From a virus, in the IMG/VR virus record IMGVR_UViG_3300045996_001487, positions 1-28,259 of that record: a stretch of 28,259 bases of DNA. One strand, written 5' to 3'. Below are positions 6,775 through 16,257 of the stretch, piece by piece. Both the position numbers and the translations under genes were made by a program. Numbering within the stretch: position 1 is the first letter of the stretch; each line of letters opens with the position of its first letter. The notes under the pieces were generated by a model. The model worked only from the letters and a program-made list of their open reading frames with translations. It searched no databases and was not told the origin of the DNA.

Positions 6775-7112
6775 GCCGTGGCCTCGCGCCACAGCGTCGC
6801 CCACGCCTCGGGCGTCATGACCATGCGCCACGTGCCGCCCCTGATGCGCAGCATGGTCACGGCGTGCGTGGCGCCCGCGTTGCGGGCCTGGGCGTCGGCC
6901 TCGATGGGCTTGCGCACCACGCCTCGGGCCACCACGTCGGTGCCGCGGCTGACCACCTGCACCACGGTGTCGGGCACGCCATCGATGTCGCCCTGGTCGT
7001 CCAAGCGGCCGGCGCCGAGCTTGCGTCGCGCCGGCACACCGAGCAGGTCGTGCAGTAGCGCGGCGGCCTCGCGCTCGCCCTCGTCGCCCTTGCGCTTGCT
7101 GGCACCGGTCAC
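6771..7112 (-). CDS. Putative Holliday-junction resolvase-like PD-(D/E)XK protein
   Basis: A 113-residue protein. The order KGDEGEREAAALL, then DDQGDIDGVPDTVVQVV, then a basic helix-rich C-terminal half, resembles the Hjc/phage resolvase pattern E...GDI-G-P...(E/Q)xK. The last catalytic position reads Gln-Val-Val where Glu-Xaa-Lys is usual, so the active site may be altered. A role in resolving recombination or replication intermediates fits the neighbouring exonuclease and primase. GTG start at 7112 overlaps the previous stop (GTGA). Confidence 0.62.
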   Translation of the reverse strand: MTGASKRKGDEGEREAAALLHDLLGVPARRKLGAGRLDDQGDIDGVPDTVVQVVSRGTDVVARGVVRKPIEADAQARNAGATHAVTMLRIRGGTWRMVMTPEAWATLWREATA

Positions 7113-12450: not shown

Positions 12451-12697
12451 TGGGGTAGCTCCTGGGGTAGTTCCACGTCACCAGGCTGGCGTTGGGCTTG
12501 ACAGCCGTATCAGGGCCGCTAGCGCATATGGCCAGGTAGTTGACGTGATGTCGGGGTGAGCGACCATCCTACCAGGGCGGCCCGTGCTACTTGTAGGAAT
12601 GCGCTGTCAACCCCGTTGCCGCAGGTCAGGGGCCTACTCGTCCTCGCTGGGGTAGCCCGGTGGGGTAGTTCCAGGCGCTGGGGTAGCCCTGGGGTAG
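12451..12697. other. Candidate attP with six arm-type repeats
   Basis: TGGGGTAG occurs, all in one orientation, at 12451, 12463, 12648, 12661, 12679 and 12690; copies 2 and 4 extend to TGGGGTAGTTCCA. Two groups flank a 177-bp centre that is non-coding for most of its length and holds an imperfect inverted repeat (CATCCTACCAG near 12565, CTTGTAGGAATG near 12590) and TTGACAGC at 12498 with its inverse at 12603. The arrangement is like attP regions of tyrosine integrases, with arm sites at both sides of a core. A TTGACA on the minus strand (12605-12610), with a weak TAGCAC 15 bp on, could be the integrase promoter. Confidence 0.55.
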
Positions 12698-12837
12698 CGG
12701 CCCGAGGCCTGCAGCTGCCCCTCGATGCGGGCGACGCGCTCGCGCACCTTGACCACGGCGCGGGCCAGCCCGAACAGCACGCTGACCAGCGCGCCGATGA
12801 GCGCCAGGGCAAGGTCGGCGCGGTCCAGGCCGCGCCC
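12634..12837 (-). CDS. Small membrane ORF continuing in frame after the lipoprotein's TAG
   Basis: The open frame directly follows the TAG at 12838 and runs 67 codons to TAG 12634. It encodes a hydrophobic segment (LALALIGALVSVLFGLARAV), a charged helix (VKVRERVARIEGQLQ) and a Tyr/Pro-rich tail coded by the arm-type repeats. No ATG, GTG or TTG precedes the hydrophobic segment; the first GTG is inside it. Translation would need TAG read-through, an unusual start such as CTG, or a start I cannot see. Codon use and amino-acid pattern look real. Boundaries are uncertain. Confidence 0.4.
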   Translation of the reverse strand, partial: GRGLDRADLALALIGALVSVLFGLARAVVKVRERVARIEGQLQASGRYPRATPAPGTTPPGYPSEDE

Positions 12838-13218
12838 CTACTGCGTGGCGGGCAGGGCTGAGCGTGGCGCCGAGGTGGCGGTGGTGGCCGGCGTGCGCCG
12901 CGGCGTGCTGGCTACGGTCGTCGTCGTGCCGGGCAGCGTGGTGCTCACCACGGTCGAGGTCGAGCTGTCAGGCGGCGGCGCCACGGTGGTGGTCGTCGTG
13001 CTCGGCGCCGTGGTCGTCGTGGTGGTGCTGCTCGATGGCGGCGGTGGCGGCGGCGGTGGTGGCGTGGTGGTCGTCGGTGGCACCGAGGTGGACGCCGGCA
13101 CGGTGGTCGACGGATAGCACGAGGGCTCGTAGCACAGCACGCGCTGATTGCCGCGCACGGTCGCGCTGCCGCAGCCGGCCAGCACGAGCAGGCCGGCCGC
13201 GAGGGCGAGGGCGCGCAC
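12838..13218 (-). CDS. Thr/Pro-rich lipoprotein
   Basis: A 126-residue exported lipoprotein. A signal peptide (MRALALAAGLLVLAGC) ends in lipobox LAGC with Cys16 as the likely lipid-modified residue. After CYEPSC the chain is an extended, low-complexity Thr/Ser/Pro stalk with nine prolines in a row. It ends with LPATQ at the TAG stop. The stalk would span the cell wall. Next to the integrase it may be expressed in lysogens; lipoproteins that block superinfecting DNA entry are known from other phages, and a lysis role is the other option. GTG start at 13218. Confidence 0.72.
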   Translation of the reverse strand: MRALALAAGLLVLAGCGSATVRGNQRVLCYEPSCYPSTTVPASTSVPPTTTTPPPPPPPPPSSSTTTTTTAPSTTTTTVAPPPDSSTSTVVSTTLPGTTTTVASTPRRTPATTATSAPRSALPATQ

Positions 13219-13221
13219 CGG

Positions 13222-13347
13222 TCAGTAGACCTTGATGGCGATGGCCACGGCGCAGACCGCGGTCACCACGTTGGCGATGGTGTTGAGGATGGGGTGGTAG
13301 GGCATGGCGCTCCTCGGTCGGTGGTCGTCGCTGGTCTCGTAGGTCAT
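13222..13347 (-). CDS. Two-start miniature membrane protein (holin/antiholin-like)
   Basis: A 41-residue reading from ATG 13347, preceded by AGGAGG at good spacing. An in-frame second ATG at 13305, preceded by its own GAGGAG, gives a 27-residue form. The longer product adds a charged, flexible N-terminus (MTYETSDDHRPRSA); the shared part is one hydrophobic helix (ILNTIANVVTAVCAVAIAI) ending in KVY. Two ribosome sites for one frame, separated by 14 codons, recall the dual-start holin genes (lambda S). It lies near the endolysin. Both forms are short for a holin, so the role is inferred. Confidence 0.6.
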   Translation of the reverse strand: MTYETSDDHRPRSAMPYHPILNTIANVVTAVCAVAIAIKVY

Positions 13348-13358
13348 GGGGTTGCCTC

Positions 13359-13496
13359 CTAGGCGTGGGCGGTCAGTAGCGGCAGGGCGGTGCCGGCCAC
13401 CACGGTGCCCTCGATGTCGGGCGTGACCATGGTGCGGCCGGCGTAGTCGGCGGGCGGCGGCGCGAACACCGAGGGGTCGGTCACGGTCACGCTCAC
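13359..13496 (-). CDS. 45-residue hypothetical protein
   Basis: GTG 13496 overlaps the previous stop (GTGA). The sequence is beta-rich and contains no charged helix (VTVTDPSVFAPPPADYAGR, then a Thr/Val-rich end). It may be a small virion or tail component, given the neighbours, but no family is recognised. Confidence 0.5.
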   Translation of the reverse strand: MSVTVTDPSVFAPPPADYAGRTMVTPDIEGTVVAGTALPLLTAHA

Positions 13497-14104
13497 CGCG
13501 CCACCGCCAACGGGGTGGGCTGCAGCAGCGAGGTGGCGGTGGGCGTCACCACGAGCGTGCCCTGCAGCACCGAGCGCGGCGCGGTCAGGCCCGTGAACGT
13601 GCCCACGAGCGACCAGCCGTAGGTCAGGCGTGGGCGCTGCACGACGTAGCGCGTGGGGTCGGGCGAGGGCGGCAGCTGGTCGACGTCGCTGACGATGCGG
13701 TCGGCCATCTCCAGCGACCACTGCGCCGCCTCATCGGTGTGCGGCACCAGCGTCAGCGTCAGCGCGTCGGGCGACAGGTCGGTGGGCACCTCCTGAGCGC
13801 GCCCGTATTCGTCGTGGTAGGCGGCCGTCACGGTGGCCCAGGGGTAGGGCTCGGCGCTGACCGTTTCCATGTCGCCGCGCACCAGTAGCTCAGGCTCCCA
13901 CCACAGCCCGAGGCCGAGGCGCAGGCGCACGTTGGCGCCCTCGATGACCGTGCTGTGCACCAGCCACGGCGCGCCGCAGTAGTAGACCCACGCGCCGGCC
14001 ACGAGGGCGTCAGCGCGCACGCGGGCGCCTGGGCGGTGGTAGCGCACGGCCGTGCCCAGCGTGGTGCCCGAGGCCACCACGAGGTCATGGTGGGGCGTGG
14101 TCAT
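13493..14104 (-). CDS. Hypothetical protein following the endolysin
   Basis: A 203-residue protein. ATG 14104 overlaps the endolysin stop (TGATG); a GTG one codon earlier is an alternative. The composition is beta-strand rich with many Trp/Tyr: GAWVYYCGAPWLVHSTVIEG, LRLGLGLWWEPELLVRG, and LTYGWSLVGTFTG. The pattern fits a virion or tail-tip protein more than an enzyme. No motif is decisive. Confidence 0.55.
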   Translation of the reverse strand: MTTPHHDLVVASGTTLGTAVRYHRPGARVRADALVAGAWVYYCGAPWLVHSTVIEGANVRLRLGLGLWWEPELLVRGDMETVSAEPYPWATVTAAYHDEYGRAQEVPTDLSPDALTLTLVPHTDEAAQWSLEMADRIVSDVDQLPPSPDPTRYVVQRPRLTYGWSLVGTFTGLTAPRSVLQGTLVVTPTATSLLQPTPLAVAR

Positions 14105-14958
14105 CACTTGGCCGCCAGCCGGCGCATCAGGTCGCTGTCGCTCGGGCTGAGCGGAAACGGGTGATTATCTGCGCCCTTGACGTAGCCGCGCATGTTGACG
14201 CCATCGCTGGCCTGCTCCTCGGTGATCTGCGTCGCGTAGCTCGCGAAATCAGTCACCCATGGCCACCCATCGGTGTCGCGCACTAGGTATTTCTCCACGT
14301 CATCACCTCCAGGTGGTGGGGTCGGGGTTGGTGTCGTGCCGCCAGCTCGGCGCTGTGCCTCGGCCACGGTGTCGGCCAGGCGCCAGCTGCCCGAGCTGTT
14401 GGTGGTCGAGGGCCGCCATAGCCCCTCGACCGCGGCGCCCGTCGCGGGGTCAATCTTGCGCGTCGGCGCCCAATCGACGTGCTGGCACAGCAGCGTCACG
14501 TCACCGCCGAGGTAGGCGCCGGCCAGCGCCTCGATGAGCGTGAACATGGCGTCGACCATCGGCGCGGGGTACGGCATGCCGGTGCCGGCGTTGCTCATCT
14601 CGATGCCGATGGCGCGGGTGTTCATGGTGTCGGCGCTGACCACGCGGCCGTTGCTCAGCGTCCACGGGCCGCCCTTGCCGTTGGTGTTGGTGGCGCCGGC
14701 TGCGCAGACATGCACCACGGCGTCACGCCCGAGCACGAGGTTGCACACGGGCTTATCGCTGCTACTAAACGTGCAGTAATGGGCATCCTGCGCGCCGTTG
14801 CCGGCGCTGGCCGTGTGGTGCAGCATGACGCACCACGGGCCGCCATCGGCGTAGCCCCCCGAGCTGCGGGCGCGTGTCTGCCAGCCGTCCAGCTCGACCA
14901 CCGCCAGGCCGGCGCGGCGCAGCACGTCGGCCATGTCGGTGAGGTAGCGCCCGCTCAT
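14104..14958 (-). CDS. Endolysin: N-acetylmuramoyl-L-alanine amidase (Amidase_2/PGRP)
   Basis: A 284-residue lysis enzyme. The zinc amidase domain (about 20-200) has MLHHTAS (His47, His48), IGIEMSN with Glu120, and LLCQHVDWAPTRKIDP with His160 and Lys168, the metal-binding and catalytic set of Amidase_2. A TPTPTPPPGG linker (209-218) leads to a C-terminal domain of about 65 residues (KYLVRDTDGWPWVTDF...), probably cell-wall binding. It would cut the amide between muramic acid and the stem peptide. There is no signal peptide, so release needs a membrane-permeabilising partner. ATG 14958 overlaps the previous stop. Confidence 0.92.
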   Translation of the reverse strand: MSGRYLTDMADVLRRAGLAVVELDGWQTRARSSGGYADGGPWCVMLHHTASAGNGAQDAHYCTFSSSDKPVCNLVLGRDAVVHVCAAGATNTNGKGGPWTLSNGRVVSADTMNTRAIGIEMSNAGTGMPYPAPMVDAMFTLIEALAGAYLGGDVTLLCQHVDWAPTRKIDPATGAAVEGLWRPSTTNSSGSWRLADTVAEAQRRAGGTTPTPTPPPGGDDVEKYLVRDTDGWPWVTDFASYATQITEEQASDGVNMRGYVKGADNHPFPLSPSDSDLMRRLAAK

Positions 14959-15179: not shown

Positions 15180-15517
15180 GACGGCGCCCCCGGTGCGGTG
15201 GGCGACACCACGGGCGGCGCGTCCAGGGGCCAATGCGCCTGCACCGCGGCCTCGATGTTTTCGTCGGTGATGACCGCGGGGTCACCGCCAGGGTCGGGGT
15301 TGCCGGCCGCCAGCGCGCTCTCGTAGGCGGCCTCGTAGTCGACCGCGGTGGGGTACGCGAACACGGCCTCGATGGGCGCGCCACCACTGAGCACCTGGCC
15401 CCCGAACATGGTGTCACCGAACATGGGATTCGCGATGGCCTGCTGCCACGTCGAGGCGGTGATGCGGTCGATGAGGGCCTGGTCATTCGCGGCCTGATGG
15501 ATGGTGGTAAGCGACAT
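15176..15517 (-). CDS. 113-residue hypothetical virion-region protein
   Basis: ATG 15517 follows a good AGGAGG site. The N-terminal half is helical (SLTTIHQAANDQALIDRITA, then TWQQAIANPMFG); the end is Pro/Ala-rich. Helical proteins of this style are frequently found between minor-tail and lysis genes of actinophages. It may be a tail accessory protein; no motif is recognised. Confidence 0.58.
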   Translation of the reverse strand: MSLTTIHQAANDQALIDRITASTWQQAIANPMFGDTMFGGQVLSGGAPIEAVFAYPTAVDYEAAYESALAAGNPDPGGDPAVITDENIEAAVQAHWPLDAPPVVSPTAPGAPS

Positions 15518-15528
15518 GGTGGTGCCTC

Positions 15529-16257
15529 CTAGGGGTATGACGTGATGCGGCCGGCCGACCACGTGGTGCGGTTGTCGAGACTCAGGTTCGGCACGTCACC
15601 GCCGACCGCGACGCGGATGAAATCACCGACTGACATGGGCTGAACCCACGCGAGGTTGACGCCCGCCCAGTTCTGGCTCGGCATCGCTGTGAACGCCGGG
15701 ATCGCCTGATACGGCGTGCCCGGCGTGCTCGGGTTGAAGAACGCGAGCGACGCCTGCGCGACCTGCTGCGGTGCACCGCCGGTGCTGCTGTAGAACAGCG
15801 CGTTCAGCGTGATCACATACGTGCCCTCGACCAGGCAGCGCACGCCCCATGAGTCCTGCGCGCTCCAGTTCCGCCCCTGTTGCATGGTCATGTTGGCGTT
15901 GCCGCCAGACGTCGGCGCCGAGGCGACCCCGTGCGCCCATGACCGTGCGATCGGACGGACCCAGCCGTCAGCGGTCGTGCGCCACCAAACGGTGCCGGAC
16001 AGCTCCGGCGACGTCGCGAGCTGACCGAATGGTGGCGTGGCAGCGCGCAGCGCGGCGTCGGTGGCATAGCGCTGCACCACGCGATCCTTGACCGCGTTAC
16101 CCCACGTGCTTTCGATCAGCTCGCCCGCAGCGACGGCGCCAGGGTTGCCGGCGTTGTCGACCGCGGCGCGCAGGTCGGGCGTGAGCAGCTGGTCCATGCG
16201 GGCGATGAGCGACCGCAGCTCGCTCAGCTCGACGGCGTTGGCGTCAACGATGGTCAT
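15529..16257 (-). CDS. Tail fibre / receptor-binding-like protein
   Basis: A 242-residue protein. The N-terminus is helical (ELSELRSLIARMDQLL, possible trimerisation), a linker follows, and the C-terminal 130 residues are a Trp-rich beta-sandwich pattern (CLVEGTYVITLNALFYSSTG, then QASLAFFNPSTP, and a final GRI TSYP end) similar to C1q/TNF-like receptor-binding heads. ATG 16257 overlaps the previous stop, with AGGAG upstream. The DNA of 15700-16117 contains five GATC sites and a codon style unlike its neighbours, suggesting recent exchange of the receptor-binding part. Role inferred from position and pattern. Confidence 0.62.
   Translation of the reverse strand: MTIVDANAVELSELRSLIARMDQLLTPDLRAAVDNAGNPGAVAAGELIESTWGNAVKDRVVQRYATDAALRAATPPFGQLATSPELSGTVWWRTTADGWVRPIARSWAHGVASAPTSGGNANMTMQQGRNWSAQDSWGVRCLVEGTYVITLNALFYSSTGGAPQQVAQASLAFFNPSTPGTPYQAIPAFTAMPSQNWAGVNLAWVQPMSVGDFIRVAVGGDVPNLSLDNRTTWSAGRITSYP

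Follow-up and report, generated by a model that had tools for sequence, protein, structure and literature searches.

A family of 26–27-residue phage membrane peptides with a second in-frame start in one member

The locus and its two starts

The gene at positions 13222–13347 (minus strand) of the window, by which we mean the whole 28,259-base IMG/VR virus record that was analysed, is real, and in it two ATG codons, at 13347 and 13305, lie in one frame and share a stop at 13222. This micro-protein gene is located between lysis genes and an integrase, with an Amidase_2 endolysin gene two genes upstream. The features of the locus are as follows.

14104–14958, minus strand: Amidase_2 endolysin in the same operon (Pfam PF01510, E 5e-13; PHROG 880 endolysin, E 5e-27)
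13493–14107, minus strand: gene call for a 204-aa protein between the endolysin and the micro-protein, with no family or relative found
13359–13496, minus strand: gene call for a 45-aa ORF ending 11 bases ahead of ATG 13347
13355–13360, minus strand: SD1, AGGAGG, 7 nt from ATG 13347 and overlapping the upstream gene's stop codon (TAGGAGG)
13222–13347, minus strand: long form, 41 aa, translation MTYETSDDHRPRSAMPYHPILNTIANVVTAVCAVAIAIKVY, with coding-like codons and absent from the relatives
13310–13315, minus strand: SD2, GAGGAG, 4 nt from ATG 13305
13222–13305, minus strand: short form, 27 aa, MPYHPILNTIANVVTAVCAVAIAIKVY, to which 18 relatives align from ATG 13305 to the stop
13228–13296, minus strand: single predicted membrane helix, residues 18–40 of the long form (AlphaFold2; hydropathy)
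12838–13218, minus strand: 126-aa Thr/Pro-rich ORF read in the sequence, with a GTG start, directly after the micro-protein stop
12634–12828, minus strand: 64-aa one-helix holin-like ORF read in the sequence, best start CTG 12828

Translation confirmed the coordinates, the frame, the 41-aa length and the 14-residue extension given in the preliminary description, and its account of a very small membrane protein with one helix and two plausible starts, each with its own ribosome site (AGGAGG at 13347, GAGGAG at 13305), agrees with the pairing values and the helix prediction. The proper spacing claimed for both sites is found at ATG 13347, while the 4 nt at ATG 13305 are at the short end of what is proper.

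Among the neighbours, the 126-aa ORF carries a lipobox-like LAGC near its N-terminus and has no match in Pfam or PHROGs; it could encode a surface lipoprotein. The holin-like ORF at 12634–12828 has GTG 12780 (48 aa) as its only standard start and gave weak PHROG matches, one of them to a holin family at E 0.05. No relatives of the 204-aa neighbour or of a 128-aa upstream ORF were found, and no promoter or terminator pattern was found in the window cassette.

Both ribosome sites pair well with the 16S tail, SD1 at -10.2 and SD2 at -7.9 kcal/mol, the median for called genes in the window being -6.1 kcal/mol (n=36). Of 773 non-gene ATGs in the window, just 0.4% match the strength of SD1 and 2.2% that of SD2. 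An additional in-frame ATG that pairs equally well and lies over 10 codons into the gene occurs in 2 of 257 called genes from the window and 18 related loci (approximate counts, as the gene caller was a simple script), namely in this gene and one other. The leader CCTAGGAGGCA at 13347–13363 recurs once in the window, at 15517–15533, before the gene of the late operon that starts at 15517.

The 14 residues placed by the long form ahead of the short-form start, MTYETSDDHRPRSA, are predicted to be unstructured (AlphaFold2, which models this N-terminal part at low confidence), and their charges, E, D and D against R and R plus H, give a net charge near -1. For the 13 codons that separate the two ATGs, the in-frame coding score is +2.44, which 4.2% of off-frame segments reach; the five remaining frames give -5 to -12.

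A conserved family of single-helix peptides

Five relatives came from viral contigs searched with a protein pattern of a 48-residue stretch; after two further rounds, based on alignments, and removal of one false hit (L032), there were 18. All 18 are found in other uncultivated phage contigs, are 54–78% identical, consist of 26–27 residues and start at the short-form ATG. The family core reads [ILV]-N-T-x-A-N-[IV]-V-T-A-V-C-A-[VI]-x-x-[AT]-[IV]-K-[IV]-x; the window gene shows the NT-x-AN-x-VTAVCA core, the Lys two residues before the end and the family length of 26–27 aa.

Eleven of the 22 aligned positions are conserved (8 invariant, 3 near-invariant), and over the 171 pairs formed by the 19 members pN is 0.14 and pS 0.55 (pN/pS 0.26), with synonymous sites saturated. 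By these measures the family is under purifying selection and the short form is its conserved product; as positions are conserved despite saturated synonymous sites, the short form is a selected protein that is very probably translated.

No match to the family was found in Pfam, PHROGs or NCBIfam (holin families included), by a PDB profile search, or in 50,697 phage records, where a 26-residue query would miss diverged members. A tblastn search of phages with the 41-aa protein, whose helix is masked by the BLAST low-complexity filter, returned nothing, and its repetition with other family members as queries, at least one of which was verified to escape masking, again gave no phage match. Two scans of genome contigs yielded no confirmed relative. 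As the query is short and small ORFs are seldom annotated, absence from these libraries is weak evidence of rarity. We describe the group, from its sequences, as an undescribed family of 26–27-residue single-helix phage membrane peptides; it is new to the searched libraries, and it may have been listed earlier in the small-gene catalogue of Fremin et al. 2022.

AlphaFold2, applied to the 41-aa form, predicts the helix at residues 18–40 with a mean pLDDT of 77.6, and the best 19-residue hydropathy value is 2.19. Three invariant residues (Asn11, Thr14 and Ala18 in family numbering) and the near-invariant Asn7 share one face of an ideal helix; the hydrophobic asymmetry of the helical faces is not significant (p 0.09). 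This one-sided arrangement of conserved residues suggests that the peptide associates with itself or binds a partner helix.

Gene contexts and possible function

The 19 members occur in three unrelated gene contexts. Group A comprises eight loci (the window, L016, L020, L027, L028, L029, L030 and L031), in all but one of which a Pfam-confirmed Amidase_2 or GH25 gene lies 0–2 genes upstream; in L030 the upstream gene encodes a 233-aa protein without a domain match. A confirmed endolysin domain thus lies within 0–2 genes in 7 of 19 members, with one more likely and 11 lacking one as far as visible. The micro-protein gene overlaps the endolysin gene by 4 bases in L027 and L029, that of L029 being a GH25 gene, and short ORFs containing one or two hydrophobic segments adjoin it in the window and in L016, L020, L027, L029, L030 and L031. 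The endolysin most similar to that of the window (60% identical) is from L003, where a 25-aa all-hydrophobic ORF (6873–6950; MNASLLAVIAVVALVLAVIALVLVV) starts within the amidase stop; it is comparable to the micro-protein in place and size but unrelated in sequence, and is possibly an unrelated replacement.

The six loci of group B (L006, L008, L023–L026) carry the gene in antisense orientation, flanked by portal and terminase. Family matches establish this context in L006 and L024, and a match to terminase does so in L025; in the others it was read from similar sequence. Two of these loci also carry a small ORF (L023 2144–2305, L024 7831–8004) in which IQPNKECVxVGPIV precedes a long Pro-Glu repeat; the end of this ORF overlaps the micro-protein start by 4 bases. 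In the five loci of group C (L017, L018, L019, L021, L022) the gene sits in a replication region, surrounded by small ORFs. L019 encodes a DNA primase/polymerase with 55% identity to its counterpart in the Gordonia Deejayvirinae, in which small membrane genes occur in the replication region but no recognisable family member was found. In one Gordonia phage, Tanis (L034 9329–9604), two adjoining 38-aa membrane ORFs, not of this family, lie between polymerase and helicase. Of the eight whole records of groups B and C that were searched, four gave an Amidase_2 gene, whose distance from the micro-protein is at least 9.9 kb even on a circular reading of the record.

As the gene belongs to a lysis cassette in part of the family only, a lysis role is plausible there and a family-wide one is not supported. 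For the window phage, the gene order makes such a role plausible, and a holin-like or holin-assisting function is the most likely one here, its main rival being a host membrane target. Against the lysis reading stand the 11 members outside lysis cassettes, the six antisense to portal and terminase and the five in replication regions.

The three unrelated gene contexts commend that rival, in which the peptide binds a conserved host membrane protein, for host takeover or superinfection exclusion, and is encoded by an independent small gene only sometimes found beside lysis genes. The near-invariance of the ANxVTAVCAV core while synonymous sites are saturated could reflect such a host protein target instead. 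The interval between lysis genes and integrase is a usual site of accessory genes; the window gene occupies it, and integrase-like ORFs, judged from their sequence only, lie near the micro-protein in L016 and L031. However, the close linkage to endolysin genes in seven members, two by start/stop overlap, and the other small membrane ORFs often found alongside in these loci speak against a host target, and we consider it a serious but unlikely explanation.

The private second start and known systems

An upstream in-frame walk from the start of each of the 18 relatives revealed no usable upstream start, and none with pairing better than -4.4 kcal/mol; in seven (L006, L016, L018, L022, L023, L026 and L028) a stop lies within 1–7 codons. 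Since the relatives found all have the short form only, without a usable long start, the pair of starts is no conserved device. Within the family as sampled, the dual start is private to the window phage, and the simplest history would be that the start at 13305 is ancestral and that at 13347 was gained. SD2 is probably the ancestral site, as GAGGAG is also the single site of the closest relative, L029 (on the same contig as L004 and L009). The N-terminal extension is lineage-specific and probably translated, and both forms are probably made.

We therefore favour, giving it about an even chance as a whole, an explanation that combines an undescribed family, a gained second start, and a holin-like or holin-assisting role in the lysis cassette. 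In the window phage, the gene would have acquired a further start, stronger than the first, by which 14 polar residues are added; the peptide would insert in the host membrane and associate via the side with the conserved Asn, Thr and Ala. In the window phage and the other cassette-linked phages it would serve as a holin-like or holin-assisting part of lysis, and the charged extension (E, D, D, H, R, R ahead of the helix) would at most modulate insertion or topology.

That the window phage makes the long form only, SD2 and ATG 13305 being relics of the ancestral start, would agree with the greater strength of SD1, the reuse of its leader at another window gene and the coding-like codons of the extension, but the pairing of SD2 still exceeds that of the window's median gene start and selection has kept the short form elsewhere, so that we regard this as rather unlikely. 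The converse, in which only the short form is made, as from the start used by all relatives found, and ATG 13347 with its AGGAGG is a chance or leftover site, is improbable given the rarity of such a site among other ATGs and the codons between the starts, which are coding-like in this frame only.

The 26-residue peptide, under strong purifying selection and found in three gene neighbourhoods, could readily be synthesised and tested, which makes it a concrete target. Should it open membranes, it would rank with the smallest holin-like proteins; should it bind a host protein, it would indicate a conserved target in the host. The second start, private to this phage, looks like a natural example of how a gene acquires an N-terminal extension. 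A bolder and decidedly speculative view is that these are extremely small membrane effectors, nearly invariant across otherwise unrelated actinophage-like viruses, which act on one conserved membrane target or as a minimal pore, and to which the window phage added its own regulatory long form by start gain.

Holins of classes I, II and III have, respectively, three helices, two helices, and one helix with a large periplasmic domain, T4 T being of class III. With one helix and no soluble domain, the window peptide has none of these architectures; it shares the single helix of T4 T, while the periplasmic domain and any sequence match are absent.

The preliminary description had invoked dual-start regulation of the lambda type. 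On such a reading the short form would be the holin and the long form an inhibitor whose charged tail resists membrane crossing, their ratio timing lysis. In lambda (S107/S105) and phage 21 (S71/S68), dual starts yield both a holin and an antiholin that bears an extra positive residue (PMC9636201), and the window gene resembles these in its two in-frame starts with good ribosome sites, its small membrane protein, the concentration of charged residues in the extension and the nearby endolysin gene. The differences are greater: the lambda and phage 21 holins have three or two helices and a short, positively charged extension, against one helix and 14 mixed-charge residues here, and none of the relatives found keeps the second start, unlike the retention in homologues to be expected of such a system. 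As holin families gave no match and 11 of 19 members lie outside lysis cassettes, as far as visible, the claim is not supported, and we consider a pair of this type highly doubtful.

A different comparison is offered by one-helix lysis proteins of Gordonia phages, of 79–145 aa with charged tails (PMC9671378), and by LysF1b of the F1 mycobacteriophages Girr and NBJ, a tested one-helix holin-like protein (PMC13056207). No sequence match to either was found, and they carry a long charged cytoplasmic tail, whereas the window peptide is without a soluble domain and three to five times shorter. It shares with them the single helix, an endolysin-linked gene and other small membrane genes alongside.
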